NCBI RefSeq assembly: GCF_900099695.1
Contig: NZ_FNCY01000008.1
Coordinates: forward strand, 26,785 to 90,784
DNA from: Propionivibrio dicarboxylicus
GTDB taxonomy: Bacteria; Pseudomonadota; Gammaproteobacteria; Burkholderiales; Rhodocyclaceae
Direction: 5' to 3'
Length of the DNA: 64,000 bases
Of this stretch, positions 20,178 to 35,375 are shown one piece after another. Within the stretch, counting starts at the first letter, position 1, and each line of letters starts with the position of its first letter. The position numbers and the translations under genes were made by a program. Below the pieces are notes generated by a model. That model was not told the origin of the DNA and made no database searches. It was given only the letters and a program-made list of their open reading frames with translations.

Positions 20178-20243
20178 GAATCATCTCCAAAGCAATAGAC
20201 GACCTTCCGGCGTCGCCGAAAGGGAATATCAGTGAGTTAGGCT

Positions 20244-20600
20244 TTAGAGATTGACGGGGGGAGCACGGGCGCCATAGGGAAGGATCGAGCGAGAAATTAC
20301 CTGCGTTACCGCCACCTCGCTGTGCGGTCCCGGCATGGCAACCTGACTTGGCGAGGGGGCAATATCCAGAGGCGGCGCCGCAACTATGCCAGCATAGGCT
20401 AGACACGACAGGCACTGTTCGTCCGCCCTTTCGTGCTGCCCGGCAGGTTTGCTGTCCGCGTTTTCCTGGACCGAAGCGCTTAAGGCACGTTGCGCATCGG
20501 TGCCAATGTGTTCGATCCAGTGTGCGAACGCTGCTCCCTGCGCAAACAGCAGGAAGAACGTGCAAACAAATACGAACAATGGAATCGAACGGCGGCGCAT
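20244..20600 (-). CDS. Small exported His/Cys protein (DUF2946-like)
   Basis: This 118-residue protein has an N-terminal signal or membrane segment (IPLFVFVCTFFLLFAQGAAFAH), followed by His residues and the motif DEQCLSCLAYAG. That pairing is typical of DUF2946-type small proteins found next to metal transport genes. The C-terminal half is Pro/Ala-rich. It is the first gene of the metal operon and probably binds or senses metal in the periplasm; the function is unproven. Confidence 0.5.
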   Translation of the reverse strand: MRRRSIPLFVFVCTFFLLFAQGAAFAHWIEHIGTDAQRALSASVQENADSKPAGQHERADEQCLSCLAYAGIVAAPPLDIAPSPSQVAMPGPHSEVAVTQVISRSILPYGARAPPVNL

Positions 20601-20603
20601 GGA

Positions 20604-20613
20604 GTGATATTAC
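20604..20613. promoter_or_regulatory. Zur-like imperfect palindrome
   Basis: GTGATATTAC is palindromic except for one pair and resembles the GTnATAnnATAnC-type core of zinc-uptake regulator sites. It lies 4 bases upstream of the first gene of the zinc-type operon. The site is short, so chance is a real possibility. Confidence 0.25.
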
Positions 20614-20844
20614 CCGAACGTGGGGAAACGTGACGGAGCGATCCGTCGCGCTACGACCGCCAAAACGCGGATGTGTTCAATGAAAGACCCCAGCGGATGG
20701 ATGTCCGTTTTTAAACCGCGACGAGCGATCAACGCCTCGCCTCTTACTGCGGAACCCTCGACGCAAAACGATTCATTCCCATGATTCAACTGGCCTCAGT
20801 GTAGAATTTGACAGCCTTCCACATGAGTCTCGCTGCGTTAGCCC

Positions 20845-21681
20845 ATGGATTCTCTTTCTGCTGCTGTTTGCGCCATTCCAAAGCAATATCGTGATCAAGA
20901 CATCTCGATCCCCAACTGTCTTCAAGCGAATGCCTTTTTGGTCAAAAGCGAGCGCGGAAAATATTGGGAAAAGTCGCTGGTTGTGACGTTTCCAGGACGC
21001 CGCCAGACGCTTTCGACCTATGATGGCTTGGTCGATGCGTTAGCAGTCGTCAACCATTCGGCACATCCATGTCTATGGAAAATAGTCGGCCAGGAATTCA
21101 TGAATAAGGATGGGTGTGGTGGAAAGTCATACGTCGAGCACATTCGCAGAAAGCTGGCCGATGACCTTGGCCTCGAACACACATCCATTACAAAAGTTGC
21201 TACCGCAGTCGACGCCGAAAATCTGGCGGTCGTAACCAAAGTTTTTGATCCGATTACTGTCACCGTATTGGTCACCGCGGGTGTCGAGACGAACGCCATC
21301 AGAGCCGGCACCGATATGGGCACCTACATCGAAGGGCAAGAACCTCCTGGCACAATCAACATCATCTTGCTGACCAATGCGGTTTTGAGCATCGGCGCGA
21401 TGGCACGCGCAATGGTCACTGCGACCGAAGCAAAAGCTGCTGCATTACAAGACCTGATGGTTCCAAGTTGCTACACACCCGACGTCCAGGCAACGGGAAC
21501 GGGTACCGACAGCGTGATTGTCGTATCAGGCAACCACGGCCCTTCTATCGCCTATACCGGAGGGCATAGCCGGATCGGAGGAATGATCGGTCAAGCAGTG
21601 CACGAAGGAGTAATAGCAGCACTCGCCAAACACGAGGCATCCGAGAGGGCAAGAACGCTCAGCATTCCAGAAATTGCGTGA
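20845..21681 (+). CDS. cbiZ: Adenosylcobinamide amidohydrolase, cytoplasmic
   Basis: This 278-residue CbiZ-family protein has KYWEKSLVVTFPGRRQTLST, AVVNHSAHP, TVTVLVTAGVETNA, GTINIILLTNAVLS, ATGTGTDSVIVVSG and YTGGHSRIGGMIG. CbiZ cuts the amide bond between cobyric acid and the aminopropanol arm, so imported incomplete or foreign corrinoids can be rebuilt. No signal peptide is present, unlike its paralogue in the fusion at 30661-32544. It converges on exbD with a 30-base gap. No riboswitch was seen upstream. Confidence 0.88.
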   Translation: MDSLSAAVCAIPKQYRDQDISIPNCLQANAFLVKSERGKYWEKSLVVTFPGRRQTLSTYDGLVDALAVVNHSAHPCLWKIVGQEFMNKDGCGGKSYVEHIRRKLADDLGLEHTSITKVATAVDAENLAVVTKVFDPITVTVLVTAGVETNAIRAGTDMGTYIEGQEPPGTINIILLTNAVLSIGAMARAMVTATEAKAAALQDLMVPSCYTPDVQATGTGTDSVIVVSGNHGPSIAYTGGHSRIGGMIGQAVHEGVIAALAKHEASERARTLSIPEIA

Positions 21682-21711
21682 TTCTGGATTGCAATCGCCT
21701 CTCAGACATCC

Positions 21712-22131
21712 TTATTTAGCAGTCGGCTGCGTCACAAACCCGATCCGCGTCAATCCGGCACGTCGTGCGGCGCTCATCGTTTCGGCAACAGCCTCATAGC
21801 GCGTATTCCGGTCGGCCTGCAAGTGCATTTCAACCTTGGCATCCTGAGCTACTGCCATCCGAAATCGCCCTTCCAACTGATCACCAGCAACTCGCTCCAC
21901 ACCCACATAGACCTGGCCTTTGGCATCAATCGCCACTTGCAGGTTGACGGGCTTTTCTGGCGTTGGCGTACTCGCGGCTCTCGGCAGCTCCACCGGCACG
22001 GAATGCGTCATCAGCGGTGCCGTAATAATGAAAATAATCAGCAACACGAGCATTACGTCCACCAACGGCGTCATGTTAATTTCTGCCGTTGGCATTTGAG
22101 TGCCCGCTGTATTGAATGAGCCGAATGCCAT
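21712..22131 (-). CDS. exbD: Biopolymer transport protein ExbD
   Basis: The 139-residue protein has one N-terminal membrane helix containing the essential aspartate (NMTPLVDVMLVLLIIFIIT) and a periplasmic domain ending GLTRIGFVTQP. It works with ExbB to energise TonB from the proton gradient. The start abuts the exbB stop. Last gene of the long cobalamin operon. Confidence 0.92.
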   Translation of the reverse strand: MAFGSFNTAGTQMPTAEINMTPLVDVMLVLLIIFIITAPLMTHSVPVELPRAASTPTPEKPVNLQVAIDAKGQVYVGVERVAGDQLEGRFRMAVAQDAKVEMHLQADRNTRYEAVAETMSAARRAGLTRIGFVTQPTAK

Positions 22132-22878
22132 TTATGCCGCCTCCGAGTGTTTTTCATCCCGCAGCGGATGTACCCGCGCAGTATTGGCAACGAACGGCTT
22201 GCCCATCGTAAAGAACGCGTGCAAGTCATGAGCAAACGCATCGAGATCGGTCAAGATGACGCGATTGACGCGAGTGAAGGCGTTGTAGGCAAAAACAGCG
22301 GGAAGCGCCACGGCAAGGCCGGCAGCGGTCATGATTAGCGCTTCGCCGACAGGCCCTGCAACGCGTTCCAACGCAGCTTGTCCGGAGATGCCGATTGCGA
22401 CAAGCGCGTGGTAGATTCCCCAGACAGTGCCAAAGAGACCGACAAACGGCGCCGTTGCACCCGTGGTGGCTAACAGCGTCAGTCCACTCTCCATTCCCGC
22501 TTGAGCACACGAAAGCTGCTGTCGGAGTGTCCGTTCCATCTGCTCGGCCGGATTGAAGCGAGAAGCGAGATGTCCGCGAGCGGCTTCGCAGTCACTGTTG
22601 CAGCTCCCGGCTTGTGTAGCCAATTGGACGTAAGGGCTGTCGCCACTGACATCACGCAACTTCTGTATGCCTTCGGCCAAAGTCGTCGCCGACCAGAACA
22701 GTCCCACGGCACGAGACGCCTTACGTAGTTTCCAGTTGTCCAGCACTTTCGCCAAGACCAGATACCAGCTCGCGACCGACATAAGCGCCAGCAGCACGGC
22801 CACAGAATGGGAAATCAAATCACCGTTTTCCCAAAGATGCGCGAATCCAAATACATTTTGCATCGCAGTTTCTTGCAT
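22132..22878 (-). CDS. exbB: Biopolymer transport protein ExbB
   Basis: MotA/TolQ/ExbB family, 248 residues from the ATG at 22878. A first membrane helix (SVAVLLALMSVASWYLVLAKVLDNW), a cytoplasmic loop, and the paired helices GLTLLATTGATAPFVGLFGTVWGIYHAL and VAGPVGEALIMTAAGLAVALPAV are visible. The start is one base after the TonB stop; the frame extends upstream inside tonB without merit. It forms the TonB motor with ExbD. Confidence 0.92.
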   Translation of the reverse strand: MQETAMQNVFGFAHLWENGDLISHSVAVLLALMSVASWYLVLAKVLDNWKLRKASRAVGLFWSATTLAEGIQKLRDVSGDSPYVQLATQAGSCNSDCEAARGHLASRFNPAEQMERTLRQQLSCAQAGMESGLTLLATTGATAPFVGLFGTVWGIYHALVAIGISGQAALERVAGPVGEALIMTAAGLAVALPAVFAYNAFTRVNRVILTDLDAFAHDLHAFFTMGKPFVANTARVHPLRDEKHSEAA

Positions 22879-22879
22879 G

Positions 22880-23545
22880 TCATTGCTCCAATCGGAAAGT
22901 AATAGGAACCAGCACCCAACTTTCAACCGGGGTGCCACCCCGCTTCGCGGGGACGAATTTCCAGGTGCGCACGGTACGCTGCGCAGATTCATCGAGTCGG
23001 AGACTTCCCGACGAGGTCTTGATATCAACCTGATCAGCGGACCCGTCTAATAAGACATGGACTCGGAGAATAGTCTTGCCTTCTTCTCCCAATCGCCGCG
23101 ACATCGACGGATAGACAGGCGCCGGATTCTTTAAATAGTCAGCATCAAAGCGCGCCTGAACCAACGGTAAGTCACCTGTCATGCTGTTGCCACCGGCGCT
23201 GCTTGGCACCGATGGCTTCGCCTCTGCCGCAACCACGGGGGCATGACTTGCTGCCGGCTCGGCACTGGCTGTTGTCTCAAGCACCGGTTGAGGCGCCTTT
23301 TGAGGCGGTGTCGATTCCTTCTTCTGCGGAACCGGCGGGGTGACAACCGGCGACGGTTTTACCCGCGATGCCTGGGGCAGCGGCATCGCCTCAATCAAGT
23401 CAACGATGAGCGGCGCCTCGACAATTTGCGGCAATGCCGTCTTGGTGAGTATTAACAAGGCAAACAGGCCAATGTGCAACCCAACCACGATGCCGATCAA
23501 CCCGGTCCGGCGCGTAGCAGACGGACTCGACAGAACGTAGCTCAT
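22880..23545 (-). CDS. tonB: TonB energy-transducing protein
   Basis: The 221-residue protein has an N-terminal membrane anchor (GLIGIVVGLHIGLFALLILT), a Pro/Lys-rich periplasmic spacer, and a C-terminal TonB domain from about residue 150 (YPSMSRRLGEEGKTILRVHV, then RTWKFVPA). As a dedicated TonB in an operon with a BtuB-like receptor it should power corrinoid import. It precedes exbB and exbD. Confidence 0.92.
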   Translation of the reverse strand: MSYVLSSPSATRRTGLIGIVVGLHIGLFALLILTKTALPQIVEAPLIVDLIEAMPLPQASRVKPSPVVTPPVPQKKESTPPQKAPQPVLETTASAEPAASHAPVVAAEAKPSVPSSAGGNSMTGDLPLVQARFDADYLKNPAPVYPSMSRRLGEEGKTILRVHVLLDGSADQVDIKTSSGSLRLDESAQRTVRTWKFVPAKRGGTPVESWVLVPITFRLEQ

Positions 23546-23606
23546 GGGGACCTCTCAATTACTCTGGCGAACATCATGTTGGTCATCATTCCAATTTCCT
23601 AAACAC

Positions 23607-26600
23607 TCAACTGGCACTTCTCAACCGCAGTCTTCTGCGCCGAGCATTGAATCCAAACCCGCATAAGACCAGAGCCGCGAAGCCCGCCAGTGCCCAGTTA
23701 CGTACTTCTGGCGTCATGTTGCCGAGTAGCCGGGTTTTTTCCTCGACTTCATACCCTTCAACCTTCGACGCGGTTTTCCCCATCGCCTTTGCAGGCTGCT
23801 CGCTCGCTGGGGATGTCTCCGGAGTTGCAGGCTTCGTCGAGCTGTCCATTGCTCCCGACACCAATGCGGAATTAGCAGCCGAAAGCGCAGATTGACGTCC
23901 AAGGTTGGGGGCCGGCATCGATTCAGCATCCGCCATGGCCCTCCGATCCTGCGCCTCCGCGAGTGCCGTGATTTCTGGGCTACTGCATGTGTTGGCATTG
24001 CAGGCAACCCCTGCCTCTGCGATCACTTCACGATTGACTTTGTCCAAGTGGGCTTTGACCTCGGGATCGGCCTTCCAGTAACCCTTGTTGATCGCAACCA
24101 GCATTTTGTCGACCAATGCCTGATACGCCAGCAGATTCTTGGCCTCACGGAATTTTTCCTTGATGTTCAGGTTGTTCCGGTCTGTCACGTAGGTTTCGTA
24201 CATTTCCTGCCACTTCGCACCATCGACAGCCTCCGGTACGGTGACCTGCCACCCCCACAGGTTGTCGGCCACCGTCTTGATATAGCGAGCACCGCCATAG
24301 CCTTCCTTCAGCATCGATTTGACCCACTCGGGGTTGGTGTAACGAGTCCGCATCTCGCGGCCCATGTACTTGTCCAGAGTTTCGTGCTTGCCGGCGGAAG
24401 GATTCGCCAGGTTCAAGACATAGGTTTCCGGCGTCTGTCCATTGACCTGTCGAATCGCCATTGCCGAACCGCCCATGTAGTCATGGAGATCATCGTTATC
24501 GAGCGTTGCAAAGAGGTTGCTGGAACGGGCGATAACGGTTGCTTTGGCGCCTTTGAGTGCCATTTTGAAGATGTTCACCGCCAGGTCCTTGCCTCCGGGG
24601 CGGTCTCCCCAATATCCCTGACCAAAAAGATGGCCCAGCCGATTGAAATACACGTCAGCAATTTCACCTTCGTTCTTCCAGGTATTGCTGGCGTCAACCG
24701 CACGGGAGACACCGACGCCATAGGCCCCTGGTGGCTCCGTAAAGATGCGAACCGCTGCCATTCTTGCTGCGTCGGCAGAATCCACGCCCTTCGCTTCGAG
24801 CGCCTTTTGTGTCGTCCTCACATTTTCCCGGATCGGGTTGTCTTCTTCCTCCAGGTCCTTGACCTTACTTACCGCGTCGTCCAGCAGCAGCATGATGTTC
24901 GGCAAGGTGTCGCGATACAGTCCCGACGGTGTAATCGTGATGTCGACACGCGGCCTTCCGAGTTCCTTGCGAGGAATCACTTCAAGCCCCGACACGCGAC
25001 CGCGCTCGTTCCAAACGGGCTTGACGCCCATAAGCGCAAGGATTTCCGCTTCGGTGACCCCCTCGTGGTTCATCGTCTCGGTGCTCCACAAGGTAAATGC
25101 CAGACGATCCGGGTATTGGCCGTGGCGCTTGCGATAATCGGCGACAAATTGCTCTGCGAGCTTTTTCCCTTGCAGCCAGATGCCCGGCGAGGGTAGCCGG
25201 GTCGGGTCGAAACCGTAGAGGTTGCGTCCGGTCGGCAACGAATCCGGATTACGAATCGGATCGCCCCCCGGCCCCGCCGCAATATATCGACCGCCCAAAC
25301 CGGCGGCCAGTGCATTGAGTTCGTCAGCCGCACTGTTCTCCATGAGCACCGACAATTCTTCCTTGCGACGTGCGAGCTCGTCAGGCGTCAATTTTCCGGC
25401 CATCGACAACATTGCCTCGGCCGTGGTTAGCCGGAGTGCCTTTTCCGGCGCAACGCCGAATGTGTGCAGACCATAAGGGGCTTGGCTGTTGCTGACCTCC
25501 TCGAAATACTCGTCGAGCTTCTCGACATCTTCCTCGTCTTTCACCGCCTTGATCCCGATATCCTTGAGCACGCCGGTCTTGCGAGCTTGCAGGTCGATTT
25601 CGACAAGTTTGGCTGCGGCCGTCGATTTGCTCTTTTGCGCTGCCACCTCGTAATCACCGATCAATGCCTTAAGCAGCTTGAGTTCCTGATTCAAGCTGGC
25701 CTTGTCAAAGGGCGGCGTCATATAGGAGATGGTGGCCGCCATACCGCGACGCTTGGCTTGCAATCCCTCTCCGATGTCATCGACGACATACGGATAGAAC
25801 TGCGGGACATCGCCCATCAATGCCTCGCCCGGATCGGCTGGCGTGTAGCCGATTTCCTTACCCGAGAGCCATTCATGCGTACCATGCGTTCCCACGTGCA
25901 CCATGGCATGCGCCTTGAATCCCTTCTGTAGCCAGAGATAGAACGCTAGGTATTGATGATGCGGTGGCAAGACGACATCGTGGAACATCTTGTCCGGATC
26001 GCCTTCCCAACCACGCGTTGGTTGCGGCGCGAAGACGAGATTACCAAAACGCTGCGCGGGAAAGACAAAATAAGGGATTCCCTTCGGGTTTTTCCAGACC
26101 ATCACTTTCGATTTTTCCGGCTCGCCCCATGCCTTGATCATTGCCGTACGCAGCTTCAACGGCTGATTTTCAAGCCATTGGCGGTATTCGGAGATAGGCA
26201 GCAACATCGCATTGCCGCTTCGCACCAGCTTTTCAAGGGCACCGCGTGACCAATTTCCAACATTGGTGCCATGGTTGCGCAACAATTCCAGCATGGCATC
26301 TTCGCTGGCTGGACGTCCCTGCGTGCTGTACCCATCGCGTTCCAAACGCGTGAGAATTTGCCAGAGTGAGCGTGGCATCACGTTGAGATACGCTGCCCCC
26401 ACATTCTCTTTACCCGCAGGATAGTTGTAGTAGATGATCGCGACGCGCTTGTTCGGGTTCAGTTCGTAGCGTAATGCCGTGAACTTTTTGATCCTGTCAG
26501 CGAGCCGCTCAATGCGCTCGGCAATCGGTACCTCTGCGATGTATTCCAGACCGCTGTCCCGATCCCGACGTCGCTCCTTGGCCGCCACAACCGTCGGCGC

Positions 26601-27620
26601 CACAGCCCCCGCGAACTCGGGAAGCGCTACCTGCCACGATCGCTCCGTGTGCGACAGTCCTATGGGGGAGTCTTCCCATTCTTTCTGGCTCAGACTCTGC
26701 AACGAGATCGCGTTGACCATCGGCACATCCAGTTGCTTCATCACCGGGATGCTGCGTTCCGGTGTATTCCCAAGCTTTGCGGCCAATCCAACGAGCGCTG
26801 CGACGCGCGATTTTCCGTTGTGGTCGATGAAATATTTCTGCGCCGGAATCTCCGACGGGTAGCCGAATGCCGCGATGACGTTGAACCCGCGAGCCTCCAA
26901 GGCGGCAAACATACTCGTTAGCAGTTCGGAACGTCCGGACTGTGCTACTGGCCGATGAAACAAGATGCCAACCCAGGGATGGTCGGCAGCGTCCGGCCGA
27001 CGCTTCACGTAATCGGCCGCATAGTCCTCAAATTTTGAAAATGCCTTGCCATTGACCGGATTCCATAAGCCGCTCATGGGAAATGCAACGACTTCTCCGT
27101 ACTGTACTGGCAACCCGAAATCGCGTGACAGAACCCGCTTGATCATCGAGGACAGGTTATCGACCCCACCCGCCTGAGAATAAGCCCGCAGGGCATCGTC
27201 TTGGACAAATCCGGCCTTTCTCTCGATTTCTTCGAACGAGGAACCGATGGCGTAGGCTTTGGCCCCGCGTGCACTCATTTTCTTGATTGCCGGGGTCACC
27301 GCTTCGGCAATCTCTCTGCCCATGTTGTAAATCAACGCAACGTCGGCACCGGAGAGCGTTTTCAGATCGCGCTCCTGAAGTTGCGTGAAGGGTAGGATGT
27401 GGAACTTGACCTCTTTCAACGCCAGTTCCTGGCGTAACTGCTTGATTGCCTCCAAGGCCGCTGGCGTCGAAGGATCGCCAGGAATGATCACCATCGAAAG
27501 CGGTTTTGCGCAGGCAAAACTAAACAGCGTACAGCCAAGAAAACCCAAGAGTACTCGGCAAAATACGGCGAGCAGGCTGTCTCGCAACGCCGTCTCTCGC
27601 CTACGATTATTCGGGGACAT
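23607..27620 (-). CDS. CobN-like chelatase, exported and membrane-anchored
   Basis: This 1337-residue protein belongs to the CobN/BchH/HmuS superfamily (MVHVGTHGTHEWLSGKEIGY, MGGSAMAIRQVNGQTPETYV, LYGFDPTRLPSPGIW). Unlike the cytoplasmic cobaltochelatase it has an N-terminal signal segment (RVLLGFLGCTLFSFACA) and one C-terminal membrane helix (WALAGFAALVLCGFGFNARR), preceded by a Ser/Pro/Ala-rich linker. The catalytic part should therefore lie in the periplasm. The related HmuS of heme-uptake loci is similarly exported. In a B12-riboswitch operon it could insert or remove cobalt from corrinoids, or act on another tetrapyrrole. No CobS/CobT partner is in the window. I chose the ATG at 27620 because it starts the signal segment; it overlaps the DUF2149 gene by 14 bases. 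Confidence 0.82.
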   Translation of the reverse strand: MSPNNRRRETALRDSLLAVFCRVLLGFLGCTLFSFACAKPLSMVIIPGDPSTPAALEAIKQLRQELALKEVKFHILPFTQLQERDLKTLSGADVALIYNMGREIAEAVTPAIKKMSARGAKAYAIGSSFEEIERKAGFVQDDALRAYSQAGGVDNLSSMIKRVLSRDFGLPVQYGEVVAFPMSGLWNPVNGKAFSKFEDYAADYVKRRPDAADHPWVGILFHRPVAQSGRSELLTSMFAALEARGFNVIAAFGYPSEIPAQKYFIDHNGKSRVAALVGLAAKLGNTPERSIPVMKQLDVPMVNAISLQSLSQKEWEDSPIGLSHTERSWQVALPEFAGAVAPTVVAAKERRRDRDSGLEYIAEVPIAERIERLADRIKKFTALRYELNPNKRVAIIYYNYPAGKENVGAAYLNVMPRSLWQILTRLERDGYSTQGRPASEDAMLELLRNHGTNVGNWSRGALEKLVRSGNAMLLPISEYRQWLENQPLKLRTAMIKAWGEPEKSKVMVWKNPKGIPYFVFPAQRFGNLVFAPQPTRGWEGDPDKMFHDVVLPPHHQYLAFYLWLQKGFKAHAMVHVGTHGTHEWLSGKEIGYTPADPGEALMGDVPQFYPYVVDDIGEGLQAKRRGMAATISYMTPPFDKASLNQELKLLKALIGDYEVAAQKSKSTAAAKLVEIDLQARKTGVLKDIGIKAVKDEEDVEKLDEYFEEVSNSQAPYGLHTFGVAPEKALRLTTAEAMLSMAGKLTPDELARRKEELSVLMENSAADELNALAAGLGGRYIAAGPGGDPIRNPDSLPTGRNLYGFDPTRLPSPGIWLQGKKLAEQFVADYRKRHGQYPDRLAFTLWSTETMNHEGVTEAEILALMGVKPVWNERGRVSGLEVIPRKELGRPRVDITITPSGLYRDTLPNIMLLLDDAVSKVKDLEEEDNPIRENVRTTQKALEAKGVDSADAARMAAVRIFTEPPGAYGVGVSRAVDASNTWKNEGEIADVYFNRLGHLFGQGYWGDRPGGKDLAVNIFKMALKGAKATVIARSSNLFATLDNDDLHDYMGGSAMAIRQVNGQTPETYVLNLANPSAGKHETLDKYMGREMRTRYTNPEWVKSMLKEGYGGARYIKTVADNLWGWQVTVPEAVDGAKWQEMYETYVTDRNNLNIKEKFREAKNLLAYQALVDKMLVAINKGYWKADPEVKAHLDKVNREVIAEAGVACNANTCSSPEITALAEAQDRRAMADAESMPAPNLGRQSALSAANSALVSGAMDSSTKPATPETSPASEQPAKAMGKTASKVEGYEVEEKTRLLGNMTPEVRNWALAGFAALVLCGFGFNARRRRLRLRSAS

Positions 27621-27945
27621 AGACGACTCTTCCATCCGGAAGTTTGTAGGCGGTACCCAGACGCTGACCTTTGCCGGATAGCTTCTGGTCAGTGACCTTC
27701 GAGACTTTGATTTCCTTGCCCTTCTTGGTGATGATCTCCATATCGCCATTGGCGTTTTTTTTCATCATCGTGACCTCAGACGTTGGATCAAGGAGGTCCA
27801 TCATGTTGTAGGCCATGAACAGGGCAATCATCATCGACACGATGAAAACAATGCTGGCGTCGAATAGGTTGGCCACCCCTGCTATCGGGTCTTCAAGTGG
27901 CTCCCCGCCGAACGAGGAGCGCCTACGCTGAGACAGCAAGCGCAT
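27607..27945 (-). CDS. DUF2149-family membrane protein
   Basis: The 112-residue protein has one membrane helix (DASIVFIVSMMIALFMAYNMMDLL) after a basic N-terminus with the family segment EPLEDPIAGVANLFDASIVF, and a small periplasmic domain. ExbD-like topology and its neighbourhood with a MotA/ExbB-like protein suggest the two form a motor-like pair serving the CobN-like protein. ATG 27945 has AGAGGGGG upstream. It overlaps the MotA/ExbB gene (23 bases) and cobN (14 bases). Confidence 0.78.
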   Translation of the reverse strand: MRLLSQRRRSSFGGEPLEDPIAGVANLFDASIVFIVSMMIALFMAYNMMDLLDPTSEVTMMKKNANGDMEIITKKGKEIKVSKVTDQKLSGKGQRLGTAYKLPDGRVVYVPE

Positions 27946-28537
27946 CGTCAGCCCCCTCTTGCAAATGACGCTGTTCGTGTTTCTTGGGATCAATGTGCGC
28001 AATGACTAATTCTGCCGCATGCGCCATTTCGCGTACGTCCTCGCGAGCCCATCGTTCGCGCACGAGGGCAATCAGGTAAGCGAGCACCCCAGCTCCAAGA
28101 CCCGCGACGGTTGCGGTGAAGGCGGTCACCATGCTGCCAGCCATCTTGGGGATATTCCCTTCAGCGAGTGCCGCGAGGGAAATTCCCATCGGTATGAGTG
28201 TCCCCATCAGACCGAGTGCCGGACCGACCTTGATGACAAAACGCACCCGGTCGAGACTACGGGAGAGACCCAATTCGGTTGCCTGCAACAGACGTTCGAC
28301 CTCAATTTCCAGTCGCTGTGGCGACATCTTGCACTCATAGCGAAGGCGATCAAGCGCCAAGCCAAACATCTCACGATCATCAAAACGATGCCGCCATCTT
28401 TGCCATCCCTCGAACAGTGTCATCCCGAGTTGAAGCGGGGTGTAACACACGAGGAATGCGCAGCCCGCGATAACGGGAAAGTAAAGGGCGGTTGCGACTT
28501 CGTACAACAACTGTTCGATCAGATGAACACTATCCAT
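27923..28537 (-). CDS. MotA/TolQ/ExbB-family proton channel protein
   Basis: The 204-residue protein has a first helix near residues 15-38 and the paired helices VIKVGPALGLMGTLIPMGISL and MAGSMVTAFTATVAGLGAGVLAYLIAL, as in ExbB. It is distinct from the true ExbB at 22132-22878 in the same operon. The start at 28537 has AAGAGGTAGCT before it. With the DUF2149 protein it probably forms a second proton-driven complex coupled to the CobN-like enzyme, as in HmuS-type loci. Confidence 0.82.
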   Translation of the reverse strand: MDSVHLIEQLLYEVATALYFPVIAGCAFLVCYTPLQLGMTLFEGWQRWRHRFDDREMFGLALDRLRYECKMSPQRLEIEVERLLQATELGLSRSLDRVRFVIKVGPALGLMGTLIPMGISLAALAEGNIPKMAGSMVTAFTATVAGLGAGVLAYLIALVRERWAREDVREMAHAAELVIAHIDPKKHEQRHLQEGADDALAVSA

Positions 28538-28631
28538 AGCTACCTCTTTCAAGAGAGGGAGGCACCGAGACGACTCCCGGCGCCTTCTCTGCACGTTTCC
28601 ATCGAACGGTCACCCATTCGACGACCAGACA

Positions 28632-30605
28632 TCACTTGTAGTCGTAACGAATACCGGCGTAGAAATTCCGACCTTGTCCTGGATAGTTCCAGTACATCTC
28701 GTTCTTGCCATCGAACAAGTTGTTGATCTCGGCGCGCAAGGTCAGCGTTCCGTTGCTATTGCTGAGTTCGACCAATTCTTTTTCGAGACTCAGGTTAGCC
28801 ACAGTACCGGAGGGCCGCTGGATGTACGGACTGCCTGTCTTGCTGTAGTCCTTTGTCAGGACCGTGCCATAGGTGTTGGCACTCAGGCGGCTCTTCAGTT
28901 TGTATCCCGGATTGGCATAATCCACCCCGTAGCTGAACATCCATTCCGGCGTGTTGGCCAAAATATCGGTCGTGCTGCCGTTGTACTGGTAGAACTGGCT
29001 TGAATCAGTCGTCTTGCGCGTGCCCAGCCAGGTAAAGCTACCGAACGGTGTCAGACTCCAACTCTTCCCAAGAGCTTTCCCTAGGTCATAGCGCAAACTG
29101 CCTTCCATACCCGCCAATGTCGCTGCCTTGATGTTCTGCCATTGGTAGGACAGGGGCATTCCCGTCACTGCCATGCCAACGATTTTGTTTTCATAACTGG
29201 AGTGGAAATACGTCAAACTGGCCGCCATGGATTTCCAATCAAAATCGGCGCCTATTTCCCAGGTCTTGCCCTTTTCCGGTTGCAGATTCGGATTCGCGTT
29301 GTAATAGGGAGAACTGCCGCCGACCTGACGCGGGGAAGGCATCTTGAAGCCTTCGGCGTAGTTGGTACGCAGCTTCAATCCTTCGACCGGCAACCAGGCC
29401 ACTCCGTAAGATCCGCCGAAGTGGCTATCCGTGTAGTCAGTCCCGCTTACCGACGTATTCGTGTATTTGTCATAACGGCCACCAACGGAGAAGATCAACC
29501 GCTCATCAAGCAAGCGGAGTTTGCTGGAGAAATACGCGCCGTGATCCGCCATCGTCGGCTTCGCCGGCGCATTGCTCGCATAGTTGTGATACTCCAGCGA
29601 ATCGATACCGACCGAGAGCGACCACAAGGAGCCGTTGTAACCGGCCTGGCCGTTCAACATCTGCGTTTCGATAAAATTCGTATACGGCGGGGTGGAGGTC
29701 TTGTATTGATTGTCTTCACGTCCGGTGGTGTAGCTCGCTGACCAGTCATAGACTTTGTCATCGGTGCTTCCGGTGTAGCTCAGCGTGGTGTTTTCGGACA
29801 TCTTCCGATAGGAATTGTAGGTCGAAGAGGGGGTGTTGCTGCCGGCGGAACGGATATAGCCCGTCGGCAAATTCGACGCGACGTCTCCTTGGTAATAGTT
29901 GAGTCCGACACGGTGATTCTTTGCGATGGTATAGCCCAAATCCAGGGTTCCCATCGTGTTGTGGTCTGTGTCGGTGTGATACCACTTCCCGAATTCAGAC
30001 GTTGAAATATCGTTGCGCGTGAAGTTGGTAAGTCCGAGGGCGAAGTCGAAGTTACCAACGGCGCCACCCGCGGCCATCTTTTCCCGGACCAAGCCGTTGC
30101 TTCCGGCACCGAGTTCGATGGATGCGTAGGGCTTGTTTGCCGTGCCCTGTTTTGTGATGACGTTAATGACGCCACCCAGAGCAGACGAACCATATTGCAC
30201 AGCAGACGGTCCGCGAATGATCTCGACCCGTTCAACGTTGGCCAAGCCCATGAAGCCAAGGTTGGCGCTGCCAACGCGGCGTCCGTTGATGAGCATGAGC
30301 ACCGTATTCTCTGGCTCATTCATCATCGTTAGGGAGCCATAACCGCGCATTTGCACACCGCTGGAATCGCCTGTCGTCACAACCATCAACCCTTGCTGAG
30401 TCATGAGATCGGCAAGCGTCGATGCGGTAGATGCCTTGATGTCCGCCTCGTTGATGATCGTGACGTTGCTGCTCAGTTCTCGCTTCGCTTCTTGCGTACG
30501 ATTTGCGGTGACGACCATTTCACGCATGCCGGCATCCTCGGCAACAACGGCTCCGGAAAACGTCAATGCAGCGGGAATGGCCGCAAAAATAATTCTCTTG
30601 CTCAT
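28632..30605 (-). CDS. btuB: TonB-dependent outer-membrane receptor, BtuB-like
   Basis: The 657-residue protein has a signal peptide, a TonB box region REMVVTANR, a plug domain (VTIINEADIKASTASTLADL, VERVEIIRGPSAVQYGSSALGG) and a 22-strand-type barrel ending with an aromatic segment (NFYAGIRYDYK). The TonB box resembles that of E. coli BtuB. It should take cobalamin or related corrinoids across the outer membrane. It lies 55 bases after the riboswitch-controlled CbiZ-nitrilase gene, with CAGGAG before its ATG, and leads into the motor and CobN-like genes. Confidence 0.85.
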   Translation of the reverse strand: MSKRIIFAAIPAALTFSGAVVAEDAGMREMVVTANRTQEAKRELSSNVTIINEADIKASTASTLADLMTQQGLMVVTTGDSSGVQMRGYGSLTMMNEPENTVLMLINGRRVGSANLGFMGLANVERVEIIRGPSAVQYGSSALGGVINVITKQGTANKPYASIELGAGSNGLVREKMAAGGAVGNFDFALGLTNFTRNDISTSEFGKWYHTDTDHNTMGTLDLGYTIAKNHRVGLNYYQGDVASNLPTGYIRSAGSNTPSSTYNSYRKMSENTTLSYTGSTDDKVYDWSASYTTGREDNQYKTSTPPYTNFIETQMLNGQAGYNGSLWSLSVGIDSLEYHNYASNAPAKPTMADHGAYFSSKLRLLDERLIFSVGGRYDKYTNTSVSGTDYTDSHFGGSYGVAWLPVEGLKLRTNYAEGFKMPSPRQVGGSSPYYNANPNLQPEKGKTWEIGADFDWKSMAASLTYFHSSYENKIVGMAVTGMPLSYQWQNIKAATLAGMEGSLRYDLGKALGKSWSLTPFGSFTWLGTRKTTDSSQFYQYNGSTTDILANTPEWMFSYGVDYANPGYKLKSRLSANTYGTVLTKDYSKTGSPYIQRPSGTVANLSLEKELVELSNSNGTLTLRAEINNLFDGKNEMYWNYPGQGRNFYAGIRYDYK

Positions 30606-30660
30606 GTTTTTGTTGGCTCCTGTGTTGAATTCGAAAAAATGCTTTGCAGATACGTGACCT

Positions 30661-32544
30661 TTAGTCCGTTATCTCTGAGAAACCTTGTTTGCCGTCCCAA
30701 TCGACATAGAACAAACGTGATCGGGCGGAGCTGAAGGAGAAAAGGCGTTTGCCCTCAACAGAGACAGCACTCTGTCCCTGAGAAAAATCGAGTTCAGGTT
30801 CTTTCCCGGTACGATTGACGGCAATCAATGGCAGGCCGGTTTCACGCGAGCGCGTTTCCCAATAATTCTTGGGGCCAAGTTCTCCCGCCGGAGGCCAGTT
30901 CGCCGGCGACAACAGAATGGCAGCGCCTTGCTCGCGATATTGCGCAGCAAGACCCGGTTTGTACGCATCAGCGCAGATCAACACGCCCACAGGGATGCCA
31001 TCGACGGACATAGGCTTGCTCTGGGCGCCCGGGGTAGACCAGGCTTCCGCCGACCCATGGACGGCCTGTTTGCGATACGTCCCCTGAATCGTGCCTTGGC
31101 GATCAATGACGACGACGCTGTTGTACAACTTGGCGGTTTTTGGATCTCTCTCGGCGAAACCGACAAATAATGCGATTCGATTGTCGCGGGCAATTGCTGC
31201 CAACGTGGAAACCCAAGTACCGGGAAATGGTTCGATCCAGTCGGTACCAATTCGTTTGAAAAAGTAATACCCCGTCTCTGCCAGTTCCGGGGTGATGACC
31301 CAGTCCGCTCCGTGGGCTACGGCTTCCTGAACCCCCTCTTCAATTCGCCTGCGATTCCCGGCGACATCTCCAGGAACGGCCTCCATATGCAACAACCCAA
31401 GGCGAATCGTATTCGGCGTTTTCGTAATCGCCGCTTTATCCCCCGCAAACCGCTTTGTGCCGGGCAGGAAAAATCCATTTTGCTTTCCCAGGGACTCAAC
31501 CACAGCCTCGTAGGTTGCTTTGCCGATAAGTTCGCCAAGTCGACTGTGCCCGCCTGCGTAGGTGGCTTTCGGCCCCGTCGAACCGGAAACGATGATCACG
31601 CTGTCGGTGCCTGTTCCGGTGGCTTGCACTGCTGGGCTATAAGTGCTCGGTATCTTGAGATCTTCGAGCGCCGCCGTCTTGCCTTCAGTCACGGTCACGA
31701 TCGCACGGGCCATCGCACCGTCGGTCAAGCGTGCGTTCGTCAGCACCATGATGTTGATCGTGCCATGCGGCTTTGAATCGGCCTCCTGCCCTTCGATGTA
31801 AGAACTCTCGTCGATACCCGTCCGTATGGCATTACTTTTCGCTCCGGCCGTAGCCAGGACGGTGACCGTCAACGGGCCGAACTCCTTGGTCACCACCGCA
31901 AGGTTGTCCATGTCGGCGGCCGTCGCCATCTTGGCGATCTCTGATTTGTCGAGCTTCAACGAATCAGCCAGTTTCTGGTGAATGTGTTCGAGATAAACCT
32001 TGCCGCCGCTTCCGTTCTGGTTCAAGAACTCTTTGCTCACCTTGATCCAGAGCAACGGATGCGCCGAGTGATTGACGGCTGCGCGTGCTTCAACGATCCC
32101 GTCGAATGTCGATAACGAACGGCGGCGTTCGGGAAACGAAACGACGAGCGACTTTTCCCAATATCCGTCTCGCTCTGCGCGAATCACTTGCGCTTGAGCC
32201 TGAAGATTGGCCGGCATTGTGATATCCGAAGCTGATGCCGTTGTCGACATCGCTAACGACAACGGGACTAGCAAAAAACCGAGCAGCGAAACTGCCTTCC
32301 TCGCAAAAGGGAAAAGGGTGTCGCCTCGACCACGTTGGCTGTCATGTCGAGTGAAAGGGCTCCGCTGGTTCCGGCGACATTGATCGGCGGTACAGAAAGG
32401 ACGGCTTTCCAGGTCCTGTCCCATACCAAAAGAAACTGAATCGTCTGTGGTGTGGCGCAAGCAGCCAGCGAGCAACTCCACGAATCGTGAAATTGCCGAA
32501 GAACGTAGCCACCTATCGATACCAACCTGTCGATGATGCATGAT
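30661..32544 (-). CDS. Exported CbiZ-nitrilase fusion protein
   Basis: The 627 residues contain a CbiZ domain (about 120-345: GYWEKSLVVSFPERRRSLST, AAVNHSAHPLLW, ATGTGTDSVIIVSG, YAGGHSRLGELIG). A carbon-nitrogen hydrolase domain follows (about 365-620), whose triad is visible as E in ITPELAETGYYF, K in TYRKQAVHG and C in GVLICADAYKP. Before CbiZ is a signal-like helix (AVSLLGFLLVPLSLAMSTTASAS) preceded by about 75 non-conserved residues. The ATG at 32544 has AGGAG nine bases upstream. Two amidases in one exported chain, downstream of a cobalamin riboswitch, suggest corrinoid side-chain removal in the periplasm. The odd N-terminus could also reflect a start I cannot identify. Confidence 0.78.
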   Translation of the reverse strand: MMHHRQVGIDRWLRSSAISRFVELLAGCLRHTTDDSVSFGMGQDLESRPFCTADQCRRNQRSPFTRHDSQRGRGDTLFPFARKAVSLLGFLLVPLSLAMSTTASASDITMPANLQAQAQVIRAERDGYWEKSLVVSFPERRRSLSTFDGIVEARAAVNHSAHPLLWIKVSKEFLNQNGSGGKVYLEHIHQKLADSLKLDKSEIAKMATAADMDNLAVVTKEFGPLTVTVLATAGAKSNAIRTGIDESSYIEGQEADSKPHGTINIMVLTNARLTDGAMARAIVTVTEGKTAALEDLKIPSTYSPAVQATGTGTDSVIIVSGSTGPKATYAGGHSRLGELIGKATYEAVVESLGKQNGFFLPGTKRFAGDKAAITKTPNTIRLGLLHMEAVPGDVAGNRRRIEEGVQEAVAHGADWVITPELAETGYYFFKRIGTDWIEPFPGTWVSTLAAIARDNRIALFVGFAERDPKTAKLYNSVVVIDRQGTIQGTYRKQAVHGSAEAWSTPGAQSKPMSVDGIPVGVLICADAYKPGLAAQYREQGAAILLSPANWPPAGELGPKNYWETRSRETGLPLIAVNRTGKEPELDFSQGQSAVSVEGKRLFSFSSARSRLFYVDWDGKQGFSEITD

Positions 32545-32683
32545 CAAACACTCCTGTTTGACCTGCTGAGAGGCTGGCGGAAAGGAGAGTGGGAAGGCGC
32601 GAAACCTCTGTTCCCGAATTCTCCGACCGCCCTCCGCACCCCACAGAAGGTCAATCAATCTGTCACCCTGGGCGAGTGACACA

Positions 32684-32928
32684 AACAACAGGCCGGTTTA
32701 CGGGCTCGCAAGTTGTTCTCTCGAACGGATGTTTCGCCTTCCCAGGAGGCCCGCAGCGACGTTTCCGACACCACGTAACGTTCCCAGTGACTGATTGCCC
32801 ATCGAGCAATCCTGAAACACCTACACTCACTTACCGTTGCGGGGGCAGCCGAGGCTTGGCGGTCAACAACCACGTACCTCGTTCCCGTTTAACGCTCCAC
32901 CTTCACAGCAGAGACGCACCTGTTGCAA
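32684..32928 (-). ncRNA. Cobalamin riboswitch upstream of CbiZ-nitrilase operon
   Basis: Read on the minus strand, the element has CAACAGGTG at its 5' side, TTAAACGGGAACGAGGT, GCCCCCGCAACGGTAA, CAGTCACTGGG, CTGGGAAGGC and GCGAGCCCGTAAACCGGCC in the standard order. The 5' GCAACAGG pairs with the 3' CCTGTTGT to close stem P1. It should turn the downstream operon off when adenosylcobalamin or another cobalamin is plentiful. It ends about 140 bases before the ATG. Confidence 0.93.
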
Positions 32929-32993
32929 CGACTTAACTCTATAACCGGGACTGACCGAACAGGAGCAGCCCCGTAAAACTCGAAACCCTGTTA

Positions 32994-33335
32994 CTACAAC
33001 TTTCTCGTTGGACTTCCCAGCTTTTCCTTAAGCATTCTTTCGCGCGTCACACCCACGCCGATGAAATAGCCGATAAAGCCAGCGCCTATTGCAGCTTGCA
33101 GGGCAAACAACAATGAAGCGATCTCTTCGCTGGCGGGTTCGAGTAACGGCTCAAACCACGGTTTATAGTCGGGGGCAATCTCGCCGATCATGTCCTTGGC
33201 CTTGTCGTCGGACCCGCCAAACAGCTTGATTTCCGGCGCCCCATCGATAGCTTCCGGCTTTTGCACCATCCAGAAAGGGATGATCGCCAACACGACCACC
33301 ATCAACAACATCATCAGATTCTTGCTCTTGCTCAT
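32994..33335 (-). CDS. cbiN: Cobalt transport protein CbiN
   Basis: The 113-residue protein has two membrane helices ([16 protein letters not shown] and [23 protein letters not shown]) flanking an extracytoplasmic loop with [19 protein letters not shown], the CbiN hallmark. CbiN is needed with CbiM for cobalt entry in energy-coupling-factor transporters. Its start overlaps the cbiM stop by 4 bases. The cobalamin riboswitch of the next operon follows it. Confidence 0.92.
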
Positions 33336-34009
33336 GACTGCGCTTCCAATTCACGTGCAAAGCCCATCTCCCTGAGTTCCTTTGGATTAAATCTTGCCAA
33401 GGCATTGAAGATCAGCACTGTCAGCAATCCTTCGCTAATGGCCAGCGGGATTTGGGTAATCGCGAAAATTCCAGCAAACTTGGCCAGCGATGCGGCAAAG
33501 CCACCGACGGGATCGGGGAAGGCGAGCGCTAATTGCACCGATGTCGTGACATAAGTCATCAAATCACCGAGACAAGCCGCGAAAAACACGCCCACAGCCA
33601 GCGAGGCGCCAAGCATCCGAGCGATCTTGTAAATTCCCCAGGCCACAAACGGCCCGACTATAGCCATGGAAAAGACATTGGCACCCAGCGTCGTCAAACC
33701 ACCATGTGCCAGCAGCAATGCTTGAAATAGGAGGACAACGAGTCCAACAGGTGCCATCGCGGCTGGACCGAACAGAAGCGCGCCGAGACCTGTCCCAGTG
33801 GGATGAGAGCAGCTACCGGTCACAGAAGGTAGCTTGAGGGCTGAGAGTACGAAAGCGAAAGCAGTGCCGACACCCAACAACATGCGTTGCTCAGGGTTGT
33901 GAGCAATCTGTTTTTTGATCGACGAAATGCCCCAGGCAACAAACGGCAAGGAGGCGACACTCCAGCCAATGGCATGCTCAACGGGCAGAAAACCTTCCAT
34001 GATATGCAC
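33332..34009 (-). CDS. cbiM: Cobalt ECF transporter S component CbiM
   Basis: The N-terminus [16 protein letters not shown] carries the conserved His2 that coordinates Co(II). The 225-residue polytopic protein also has [21 protein letters not shown] and [19 protein letters not shown]. It imports cobalt for corrinoid synthesis. It is followed by cbiN, but no cbiQ or cbiO is present. A cobalamin riboswitch lies upstream, so cobalt uptake is shut off when cobalamin is present. Confidence 0.93.
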
Positions 34010-34154
34010 GATTCACCTCATTTCTCGAATACTGCTCGGGAAAATGGGAATCAGATCGGAAGATGGGCTATCAATAGCGTCGACAACAAAAACACTACCG
34101 GCAGCGAATCGTCAGAACCTCACCCCTCACCCCGAGGATTGGCACTACATTCGT

Positions 34155-34350
34155 TCCAGGCCGGTCTTCTGGCTCACCTTCATCCTCCTCCAGCGCCTTC
34201 CCATGCGAAAACGTCGCACAGTGGCATATTGCTGGACTCGTCAGGCTTACAGCAGCGGGGGGCTGCACCGGAATTATCATCAAGGCAATTGATGACGCCA
34301 CCGGTTTCCCGTTTAACCCTGCTCCACGGTTGCAAAGCAGGACACCTAAA
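34155..34350 (-). ncRNA. Cobalamin riboswitch upstream of cbiMN
   Basis: On the minus strand the elements are GGTGTCCTGC, GTTAAACGGGAAACCGGTG, GCAGCCCCCCGCTGCTGTAA, ATGCCACTGTG, ATGGGAAGGC and GAGCCAGAAGACCGGCC. These are the core segments of the cobalamin riboswitch in the right order. The CCCCGCTGCTG segment differs slightly from the usual CCCCGCAACTG. It ends about 145 bases before the cbiM start. Confidence 0.92.
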
Positions 34351-34521
34351 ACTAAGGGAAAGTCTACCTTTTCAAACCCATCGAGGCAATGCGGCTTTCC
34401 ACAATCATGATTCGTTCCGTGCAGATCCAACTCTTGCGTAATCAGTTGAGCAGATCCCAGTGTCTGTTTTCTGAAACGTTGCTGCCGTTACTTAACGACA
34501 AGTCAATGGCTGCTTCGGCCG

Positions 34522-34680
34522 GATTCTGTTGAAAAACTCCTTCGATGCACGTTTCGGTGGTTTTTTAGGGGTGCTGAAACCCTTCCCCAAGCGACTATCA
34601 TCGATCGTAGAGCGATTCTGAAGGTCGAAAAATTCTTTATTGCGCTGGCGCGATTGCAAACGGAGTTTTTCAACAGAATC
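34522..34680. mobile_element. 159-bp MITE with perfect 19-bp inverted repeats
   Basis: The ends are GATTCTGTTGAAAAACTCC (34522-34540) and its exact reverse complement (34662-34680). The element is flanked on both sides by GCCG (34518-34521 and 34681-34684), a 4-bp target duplication. The interior has no transposase gene; an open minus-strand frame across it is Lys/Arg-rich and looks like chance. It is probably mobilised in trans by a full-length IS with the same ends, not present in this window. Confidence 0.75.
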
Positions 34681-34986
34681 GCCGAGGACTTGCCTGTGAG
34701 CATTTGCTTTTAGTGTCCGCACTACTTCATGAAACGCGACATGGACCGACTCCCGAGCAAGGACAAATCAGGAGTCGAGGCATTCAGCTAGCAAACGGGT
34801 TATCTCGATGATCGGAGGCTTTGTTGTAGCCCTACTAGCATAGGGACATACAACCACTTTTCGCGAGCATATGCTAATAACCCACCAGGCTTATCCATCG
34901 ACGGTCGACAAGCCTGGGCGGCTGGTAAGGCTCTGCAGCGCTTTTTCAATACACGGCTTGGTATTGCACCTAGAGTCTACGCGGAC

Positions 34987-35262
34987 ATGGTTGAGCGCTT
35001 GTGCGAATCGGCGGTTGAGGTCGGCGCAGAAGTGATCGAAGCGGCCAGGAACGAATCACGCTGGCGTTCGGTTGCCAAGCAGATGGTGCATGCCTGGAAT
35101 GAAGGCATGGTATCGCTGCGTGACCCTAAGAGGTCCGTGGAGCTTCGGGGCTTGGATACTGCAATTGCCGCAGCTTGTTTTTCCGAACCAGAGCCCCCGG
35201 AACAAACCCATGTGACGATCGGTCGCTCTGAACTACTGGCTCCACAGCAGCGCAAACGATAA
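34987..35262 (+). CDS. Hypothetical protein, possibly 5'-truncated
   Basis: The 91-residue frame from the first ATG is not assigned to a family. The same frame is open back to 34792 and stays protein-like (GTYNHFSRAYANN, AWAAGKALQRFFNTRLG) but has no start codon there, so the gene may have lost its 5' end. Helical segments such as VERLCESAVEVGAEVIEAAR loosely recall phasin-type proteins; this is weak. It sits between a MITE and an EAL-domain relic, a region of decayed genes. Confidence 0.35.
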   Translation: MVERLCESAVEVGAEVIEAARNESRWRSVAKQMVHAWNEGMVSLRDPKRSVELRGLDTAIAAACFSEPEPPEQTHVTIGRSELLAPQQRKR

Positions 35263-35375
35263 TTTTTGAGATACTTTCATTATCTTGGGATTGGCTTTTT
35301 AGCCGATATGACAGATAAAAGTATCGAGGCTTTCCAAAACCTGAATTTGAAAAGCCGAACATCGGCAAGCTCGTC

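Follow-up and report, generated by a model that had tools for sequence, protein, structure and literature searches.

In our study, a stretch of 64,000 nucleotides from Propionivibrio dicarboxylicus (contig NZ_FNCY01000008.1), here called the window, was analysed with regard to an eight-gene operon on its minus strand behind a cobalamin riboswitch. This operon is proposed to be repressed by vitamin B12 and to handle corrinoids in the periplasm, where a MotA-DUF2149 pair would serve as a motor acting on a CobN-like enzyme; we give the explanation as a whole a probability of about 0.5. Read directly from the sequence are the genes and riboswitches, the hydrophobic ends of the proteins, the motif, the linkage of the genes and the absence of a ChlID-type match from the genome; we infer the topology, the driving of the enzyme by ion flow and the substrate. 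The coupling of a stator to a chelatase is proposed as the strongest new idea.

Organization of the operon

A single minus-strand operon behind a cobalamin riboswitch had been described in an initial annotation of the window, and every element named there was confirmed with RF00174 and Pfam. Eight open reading frames (ORFs) follow the riboswitch in the order given below, all on the minus strand and with gaps of at most 61 bases.

32674-32938, minus strand: cobalamin riboswitch heading the operon (RF00174, 79.8 bits)
30661-32688, minus strand: CbiZ-nitrilase fusion, probably exported by prediction (Pfam CbiZ 183 bits, CN_hydrolase 95 bits)
28632-30605, minus strand: TonB-dependent receptor (Pfam Plug and barrel)
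27923-28594, minus strand: MotA/ExbB-like stator subunit (Pfam MotA_ExbB, 47 bits)
27607-28002, minus strand: DUF2149, proposed ExbD/MotB-like stator subunit (Pfam, 115 bits)
23607-27749, minus strand: CobN-family enzyme of the BtuS/HmuS side, predicted to be anchored and periplasmic (Pfam CobN, 1013 bits)
23610-23762, minus strand: C-terminus of the CobN-family enzyme, with VEGYEV (23762-23745), a hydrophobic helix and an arginine-rich tail
22880-23545, minus strand: TonB (Pfam TonB_C, 78 bits)
22132-23028, minus strand: ExbB (Pfam MotA_ExbB, 108 bits)
21712-22131, minus strand: ExbD (Pfam ExbD, 110 bits)

For the CbiZ-nitrilase, CobN and ExbB ORFs the starts as listed probably lie too far upstream, and the likely ones are internal. 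These lie near 27635 for CobN and 22875 for ExbB, and perhaps near 32424 for CbiZ, which is still uncertain; for DUF2149 the likely start is near 27927. The second CbiZ and the BtuFCD-like genes described below fall outside the span assigned to the system in the initial annotation.

The CobN-like enzyme: anchors, kinship and active site

The hydropathy of the two terminal segments of the CobN-like protein was found to be 2.3 and 2.17, so that both ends are predicted membrane anchors, and the tail past the second segment is rich in arginine. Because of these hydrophobic ends and the arginine-rich tail, the body of about 1,250 residues is predicted to be periplasmic. The protein agrees with the BtuS type, the exported relatives of CobN and not to the biosynthetic CobN/ChlH enzymes, and it is not predicted to be cytoplasmic and free of anchors as canonical CobN is. 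The extracytoplasmic location assigned to it earlier is therefore supported by the two predicted ends as well as by a C-terminal Cys pair, which is common to HmuS.

For comparison, 84 long CobN ORFs were surveyed, of which 67 have DUF2149 within 6 kb (stator-linked), 10 have ChlID within 8 kb (ChlID-linked) and seven have neither. ORFs shorter than 1150 amino acids were excluded from this survey and those shorter than 1200 amino acids from the active-site alignment; short loci duplicated by longer ones were dropped from the survey, the CobN tree, the motif count and the MotA/DUF2149 conservation count. Hydrophobic segments at both ends were found in 57 of the 67 stator-linked proteins, none of the 10 ChlID-linked and one of the seven others. 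Taken singly, the N-terminal segment is present in 61, one and two proteins of these groups, and the C-terminal one in 63, none and two, the last two both being in L142, beside a stator cluster. A Cys pair with the HmuS spacing near the C-terminus occurs in 45/67, 2/10 and 2/7. Moreover, a strict VEGYEM-type pattern precedes the C-terminal helix in 48/67 stator-linked, 0/10 ChlID-linked and 2/7 other proteins (65/3350 in shuffled tails), and nine of the 19 stator-linked tails without it carry looser variants by eye. No VEGYEM-like motif was seen, even by eye, in a nine-row marine clade and the truncated row of L152.

Among solved structures, the best match of the window protein is HmuS (9d26). 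Against the canonical CobN equivalog models it scores 871.6 at best (cut-off 1248), and 606 against TIGR02257 (cut-off 822). In a quick tree, in which the branches of L116 and L138 are long and the composition is uneven, the 10 ChlID-linked rows and five unlabelled ones stand on one side of a branch with an SH-aLRT (Shimodaira-Hasegawa-like approximate likelihood ratio test) value of 100, and all stator-linked rows lie on the opposite side from the ChlID-linked ones. The structure match and this placement uphold the first proposal, that the enzyme is closer to HmuS than to canonical CobN.

Aligned with HmuS, the window enzyme keeps the equivalents of His538, Glu577, Ser1014, Ser1067, Ser1199 and Asp1208, the Met-Gly of the head/neck heme site (HmuS Met79) and, as HVGTHG, the HxGTHG catalytic His motif of class I chelatases. 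The column of HmuS His1209 (LSLDHxxEFMGG) holds an Asp, in the segment LDNDDLHDYMGG, as does the column of Glu1212, and no His was found in the column of His254 (HGR motif). Canonical CobN also has Asp-Asp at the His1209 site. The Met-rich insertion of HmuS (at least 22 residues) was not found in the window protein, where 26 residues with three Met lie between the blocks at 777 and 804; the matching stretch of HmuS runs from residue 693 to 928. Since Asp replaces His1209 and Glu1212 and His254 is absent, with the catalytic His and Glu kept, the active site is, as judged from the alignment, of chelatase type and not of HmuS type. Besides HmuS itself, four aligned rows have an HmuS-like DHxxE site (L072, L073, L114, L119); no riboswitch was found in the three scanned with Rfam (L072, L073, L114), a number too small for a test. 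Two archaeal anchored CobN paralogues (L046:13404-17963 and L122:2559-7322) are without the catalytic His and the DD motif, and the former sits beside two copies which retain the His.

The MotA-DUF2149 pair

Of the genomes surveyed for DUF2149, 18 of 274 in the class, 92 of 294 in an archaeal phylum and 8 of 198 in a third phylum were positive. MotA was taken as adjacent when its gene lies on the same strand within 700 bases of DUF2149, and CobN as linked when it lies within 6 kb. MotA adjoins DUF2149 in 27/27 loci of a contig scan and in all long loci of the class (17/17), of the third phylum (5/5) and of the high-scoring archaeal set (19/19); CobN is linked in 24/27, 17/17, 5/5 and 17/19, respectively. 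The CobN misses are three short archaeal contigs in the contig scan and, among the long archaeal loci, L127 (at a contig end) and L131. The 30 short archaeal loci are the best-scoring of the 92 positive genomes, while the 19 long loci (E 5e-36 to 4.3e-33) and the 20 weaker archaeal stretches discussed below (E 7e-29 to 3e-10) were picked by hand and are not a random sample. In archaeal and third-phylum loci a DUF2162 membrane protein usually precedes MotA.

The MotA member of the window is homologous to ExbB (hhalign 96%), and a profile built from 26 relatives hits the solved structures of ExbB and MotA. Its Thr132, Pro135 and Gly137 are invariant in all 90 of 91 rows having a letter there, and Asn45 and Asp48 of DUF2149 are invariant in 90/90 sequences; identical sequences were merged for this count, and duplicates were dropped only for the class and the own genome. 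Asp48, early in the helix, falls in the register of ExbD Asp25 in a weak alignment (hhalign 16.7). Both proteins had been listed in the initial annotation, which was right as to their presence but had missed that they form a unit of their own, distinct from TonB-ExbBD, which follows anchored CobN into archaea.

The corrinoid link and regulation

Rfam was applied to 53 comparator stretches: 27 from the genome scan (four archaeal), 17 of the class, four second copies and five Nitrospirae, the phylum of L035. A cobalamin riboswitch was found in 18 of them (L021, L022, L024, L025, L026, L030, L040, L060-L066, L116 and L144-L146), and in 17 of these it precedes a gene of the CobN-MotA-DUF2149 module or its receptor, with a gap of 0.6 kb in L116. 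In L022, the locus of Azospira oryzae DSM 21223, it stands immediately ahead of the receptor. The riboswitch of L021 heads a ribonucleotide reductase gene 3 kb upstream of the module. A further cobalamin riboswitch, followed by a large ORF, lies upstream of the module in L021:3977-7109, L022:2086-5312 and L024:1948-6471, the ORF being ribonucleotide reductase in L021 and L022. CbiZ occurs in eight of the 53 stretches. In L145, from the Nitrospirota side, one strand carries a riboswitch, receptor, CbiM, receptor, TonB, DUF2162, MotA, DUF2149 and CobN, with three further ORFs among them; CbiM is in the same array in L146 too, together with CbiQ and an ATPase. The corrinoid link put forward for the window has gained from this recurrence of riboswitch and CbiZ beside the module in several lineages, and the corrinoid reading of the operon is likely.

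Fur-like boxes stand directly before module genes in L047 and L074. For Zur, no convincing site was found in 44 stretches (the window being covered at 20001-36000), where the few matches with three mismatches were about as many as expected from shuffling. In view of the Fur-like boxes, the membership of the Pseudomonas aeruginosa operon PA1922-PA1925 in the Zur regulon and the riboswitches, the same CobN-MotA-DUF2149 core seems to have been placed under control by iron, zinc or B12, which would be compatible with a role in metal harvest. A thiamine pyrophosphate (TPP) riboswitch (L059:10346-10476) was observed directly before a TonB receptor adjoining such a module. Azonexus sp. R2A61 has three distinct stator-linked CobN modules (L021, L041, L116), with a riboswitch in the L021 and L116 stretches and none in that of L041; L021 also carries a CbiZ-nitrilase.

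The receptor of the window scores 122 bits against the B12-receptor model TIGR01779 (cut-off 599.7) and 172 bits against the hemin-receptor model (cut-off 316.85). It is a TonB-dependent receptor, as had been stated, but the label BtuB-like is loose, as the score lies below the B12-receptor cut-off; neither cut-off is reached. The CbiZ domain of the operon is well above its Pfam cut-off of 27 bits, which identifies it as a CbiZ amidohydrolase domain, and a hydrophobic segment ahead of it, behind an uncertain start codon, resembles a signal peptide. Signal-peptide-like starts were seen by eye on all eight comparator CbiZ proteins (L021, L023, L025, L026, L030, L040, L058, L144). In L058 CbiZ and nitrilase are separate genes, each with such a start, and in L040 a BtuF-type binding domain with such a start precedes CbiZ in one fused protein. 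The Glu, Lys and Cys positions of the nitrilase are kept in the window, L021, L026 and L058. The exported CbiZ-nitrilase of the initial annotation thus stands, as a fusion by Pfam and as a predicted export by the starts of the relatives.

Genome context

The following features lie beside the operon.

34142-34364, minus strand: cobalamin riboswitch heading cbiM/cbiN (RF00174, 121 bits)
33332-34009, minus strand: CbiM, cobalt energy-coupling factor (ECF) importer subunit (Pfam CbiM, 188 bits)
32994-33335, minus strand: CbiN (Pfam CbiN, 94 bits)
20845-21681, plus strand: second CbiZ, without signal peptide (Pfam CbiZ, 168 bits)
14303-16991, plus strand: BtuF-BtuC-BtuD-like ATP-binding cassette (ABC) importer (Pfam Peripla_BP_2, FecCD, ABC_tran)

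Six cobalamin riboswitch matches were found in the genome, and three cbiM/cbiN pairs stand directly behind one (window, contig 10, contig 29), which suggests that cobalt supply matters much to the organism. A cluster on contig 29 holds CbiX, a CbiA-type amidotransferase, BtuR/CobO, four tetrapyrrole methylases, CbiC, CbiQ and an ABC ATPase. The cell thus carries genes of the anaerobic B12 route, and cobalt is probably inserted early, by means of CbiX. A genome search found no CobN-family gene besides that of the window and no FecCD permease besides that of the BtuFCD-like genes.

ChlID (TIGR02442, cut-off 779) was sought in 40 genomes, 23 bacterial and 17 archaeal. The best match in the 23 bacterial carriers has 48 bits, and that in the own genome (G000) an E-value of 2.3e-4, so that no ChlID partner was recognised there. 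Matches of at least 490 bits occur in 14 of the 17 archaea; G295, G373 and G440, which carry the stator-CobN module, have best matches of only E 1e-6 to 4e-5. The archaeon G274 has both arrangements, a CobN beside ChlID (L133) and an anchored CobN beside MotA-DUF2149 (L046). In the class, CobN was found in 18 of 143 genomes, nine with and nine without DUF2149. A role of the window CobN as the biosynthetic subunit for late cobalt insertion was rejected, since no ChlID-type match was found, CbiX is present and the protein is predicted to be anchored.

The second CbiZ is 61% identical to that of the operon over 249 amino acids, and its stretch MATAADMDNLAVV reads VATAVDAENLAVV; because of this reading and the lack of a signal peptide it may be a cytoplasmic or decaying copy. 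The interval from 17106 to 20600, between the BtuFCD-like genes and the operon, is a metal-uptake cluster made up of ZnuA, an ABC-3 permease, a small ORF and an outer-membrane-like protein that gave no Pfam match. Further away (9042-13823), a prokaryotic E2-E1-JAB fusion (747 amino acids), a gene of 386 amino acids and a capP-like M78 peptidase (246 bits) are closely spaced, and from its domains this looks like a defence locus of CBASS (cyclic oligonucleotide-based antiphage signalling system) type or a related ubiquitin-like one.

Proposed mechanism and its weighing

When B12 is low, the riboswitch would open, and the receptor, energised by the TonB-ExbB-ExbD of the operon, would carry corrinoids over the outer membrane. 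The amide that leads to the nucleotide loop would be cleaved by the exported CbiZ, and a further C-N bond by the nitrilase domain. The CobN-like enzyme, whose two terminal helices would hold it at the inner membrane, would then receive the corrin ring in its cleft. MotA-DUF2149, as an ion channel pair of ExbBD/MotAB type, would push or pull this protein via its C-terminal helix and VEGYEM-like linker, and would so replace the role of the AAA+ partners ChlID or CobST known for canonical CobN and ChlH. The metal would most likely be released; CbiMN, under the second B12 riboswitch, would import the cobalt and BtuFCD the usable rings. The direction of the metal chemistry, metal out, is the weakest step, and we hold it only tentatively, at somewhat less than even odds; the removal of cobalt is a guess by analogy with HmuS.

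A number of findings weigh against this explanation. To our knowledge, cobalt removal from an intact corrin has no biological precedent, and re-use of the ring would be cheaper than stripping it. DUF2149 resembles ExbD only weakly (hhalign probability 16.7 over 20 columns), its AlphaFold model has a mean pLDDT (predicted local distance difference test) of 68, and its profile found no match in the PDB (best E 0.21). The nine-row marine clade without the VEGYEM motif branches nearest the canonical CobN side. TIGR02442 does not cover CobS/CobT, for which no search was made, so these AAA+ partners are not ruled out. In 35 of the 53 comparators no cobalamin riboswitch was found within the stretch examined, and the module is therefore not always tied to B12. 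Purified recombinant HmuS is able to dechelate heme (PMC12583661).

The specificity of the pair is weakened most by the weaker archaeal sample, with which L132 (two weaker MotA-DUF2149 pairs, no CobN) was counted. CobN lies within 6 kb in only one of its 24 DUF2149 genes (22 in the 20 stretches, two in L132); among the 22, MotA is adjacent in 18, and two of the four misses are at contig ends. A non-CobN ORF of more than 1,000 amino acids is carried by 10 of the 20 stretches, a BtuF-type gene by eight and either by 13. Exclusiveness of MotA-DUF2149 to CobN was rejected, being contradicted by this sample. From these neighbourhoods the stator appears to be of general use and CobN to be one of its clients, and the idea of a stator dedicated to CobN is therefore weakened and was widened. 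In L162-L181 (e.g. L170:2263-9762 and L173:7166-14784) archaeal MotA-DUF2149 was observed beside giants with CARDB, PQQ or beta-helix domains, often together with BtuF/BtuC. The three giant ORFs scanned have CARDB, PQQ, NosD or beta-helix domains, and several giants end, by eye, in a membrane helix behind a G[FY]PFGN or GHPFGE motif. Such pairs and giants are possibly stator-driven surface machines.

In a still broader reading, MotA-DUF2149 would be an ancient bacterial and archaeal stator which drives extracytoplasmic proteins via a C-terminal helix and linker motif; anchored CobNs would be ion-gradient-powered chelatases or dechelatases under Fur, Zur or B12 control that harvest tetrapyrrole metal, and the window operon would harvest corrinoid cobalt, its enzyme then being the first known to us that removes cobalt from a corrin. 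This generalization is doubtful at present.

Alternative explanations

The alternative which survives best is that the CobN-like protein performs no metal chemistry and, together with MotA-DUF2149, is a corrinoid carrier, which would supply BtuFCD with its load or transport corrinoids through or along the inner membrane. It would suit the CbiZ products, which are reusable rings, and the B12 repression, which befits acquisition; the BtuF-type genes of the weaker archaeal stretches (8/20) and the two archaeal paralogues that lost the active-site His (L046:13404, L122:2559) also speak for it. The window protein, however, retains the chelatase His and Glu residues and BtuFCD-like genes are already present, and we regard a pure carrier as rather unlikely. 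For the same BtuFCD-like genes, MotA-DUF2149-CobN as the sole inner-membrane route for corrinoids was rejected.

MotA-DUF2149 could also be an extra ExbB-ExbD pair energising TonB and the outer-membrane receptor, with a CobN-like enzyme that needs no motor. This is the published view for HmuU/HmuV of the hmu operon, which are assigned to TonB in PMC10100974, and it agrees with the match of the MotA profile to solved ExbB and with the 1-2 turnovers given by purified HmuS. A motor on CobN rather than on TonB is preferred because archaea, which have no outer membrane, keep the pair with CobN, and because the window encodes a complete TonB-ExbB-ExbD besides it; the TonB assignment is hence considered unlikely.

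The substrate may instead be heme or another metalloporphyrin, which would make the enzyme an HmuS-type dechelatase brought under the control of a B12 riboswitch. Among solved relatives HmuS scores best, the receptor scores somewhat higher as a hemin than as a B12 receptor, and Fur-like boxes precede module genes in L047 and L074, but His254, His1209 and the Met-rich insertion of HmuS are absent from the window and riboswitch and CbiZ share the operon with the enzyme, which makes heme an improbable substrate. More improbable again is that the enzyme inserts cobalt in the periplasm, into external corrinoids which are free of metal or carry the wrong one. The chelatase residues, the CobN-like Asp at the His1209 position and the neighbouring cbiMN would agree with it, but CbiMN moves cobalt into the cytoplasm, and neither a cobalt pool in the periplasm nor an abundant diet of metal-free corrinoids is known to us.

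Comparison with known systems

HmuS belongs to the Bacteroidota heme dechelatase system hmuYRSTUV (PMC12583661, PMC10100974), which is closed by genes of the MotA/TolQ/ExbB family and DUF2149 (PMC10434189). The window shares with this system a CobN-family enzyme with N- and C-terminal helices and C-terminal Cys pair, and a TonB receptor, whereas its B12 riboswitch, CbiZ-nitrilase and own TonB-ExbBD set it apart from the hmu operon, as the missing His254, His1209 and Met-rich insertion set its enzyme apart from HmuS. No Pfam match to HmuY or DUF2162 was found among the eight ORFs of the operon. The archaeal and third-phylum DUF2162 before MotA has the place of HmuT before HmuU and HmuV, a likeness by position alone. 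Purified HmuS makes only one or two turnovers (PMC12583661), and a membrane fraction with NADH supports its activity (PMC12583661, PMC13227078); HmuV is without homology to a known family, and HmuT, HmuU or HmuV may affect HmuS activity (PMC13227078). If our proposal is true, it could explain why purified HmuS turns over only once or twice, and DUF2149 (HmuV, PA1925) would gain a function.

BtuS was described as a third, exported type of CobN relative, credited to Rodionov et al. 2003 (PMC6460266), and a riboswitch was noted ahead of hmu-like operons without HmuY (PMC10100974). Exported CobN relatives and riboswitch-led hmu-like operons are hence already in print in these sources, with the same CobN type and riboswitch placement as in the window; the available portions of both mention no role of MotA-DUF2149 on CobN and no exported CbiZ-nitrilase. 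In the literature as far as available, no paper was recognised as proposing MotA-DUF2149 as a motor of CobN-type enzymes or as describing an exported CbiZ-nitrilase, which is not a proof of absence. The BtuS of Methanosarcina barkeri is described as lacking the operon (PMC10846266).

The operon PA1922-PA1925 of P. aeruginosa (PMC4542158, PMC9431628) resembles that of the window in combining a TonB receptor with a CobN-like protein, DUF2149 and a protein of an "ExbD" family, but is zinc-controlled. Raised cellular cobalt in a znuA mutant was tentatively ascribed to it (PMC4542158). Our proposal, if true, would tie together three metal-starvation operons and those CobN copies of methanogens that have had no explanation.

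Canonical CobN (with CobS/CobT or ChlID) and ChlH/BchH (with ChlID) share the enzyme family and active-site motif with the window protein, but use an ATP-driven AAA+ partner, and none of the 10 ChlID-linked CobNs has both ends hydrophobic, one having the N-terminal segment. With the ExbBD, TolQR and MotAB stators, the window pair has in common a homologous MotA member and, by a weak alignment, the DUF2149 Asp in the ExbD Asp25 register. The difference lies in the proposed client, which would be an enzyme with its own C-terminal helix and not TonB, TolA or the flagellar rotor; if this is true, stators can power an enzyme.

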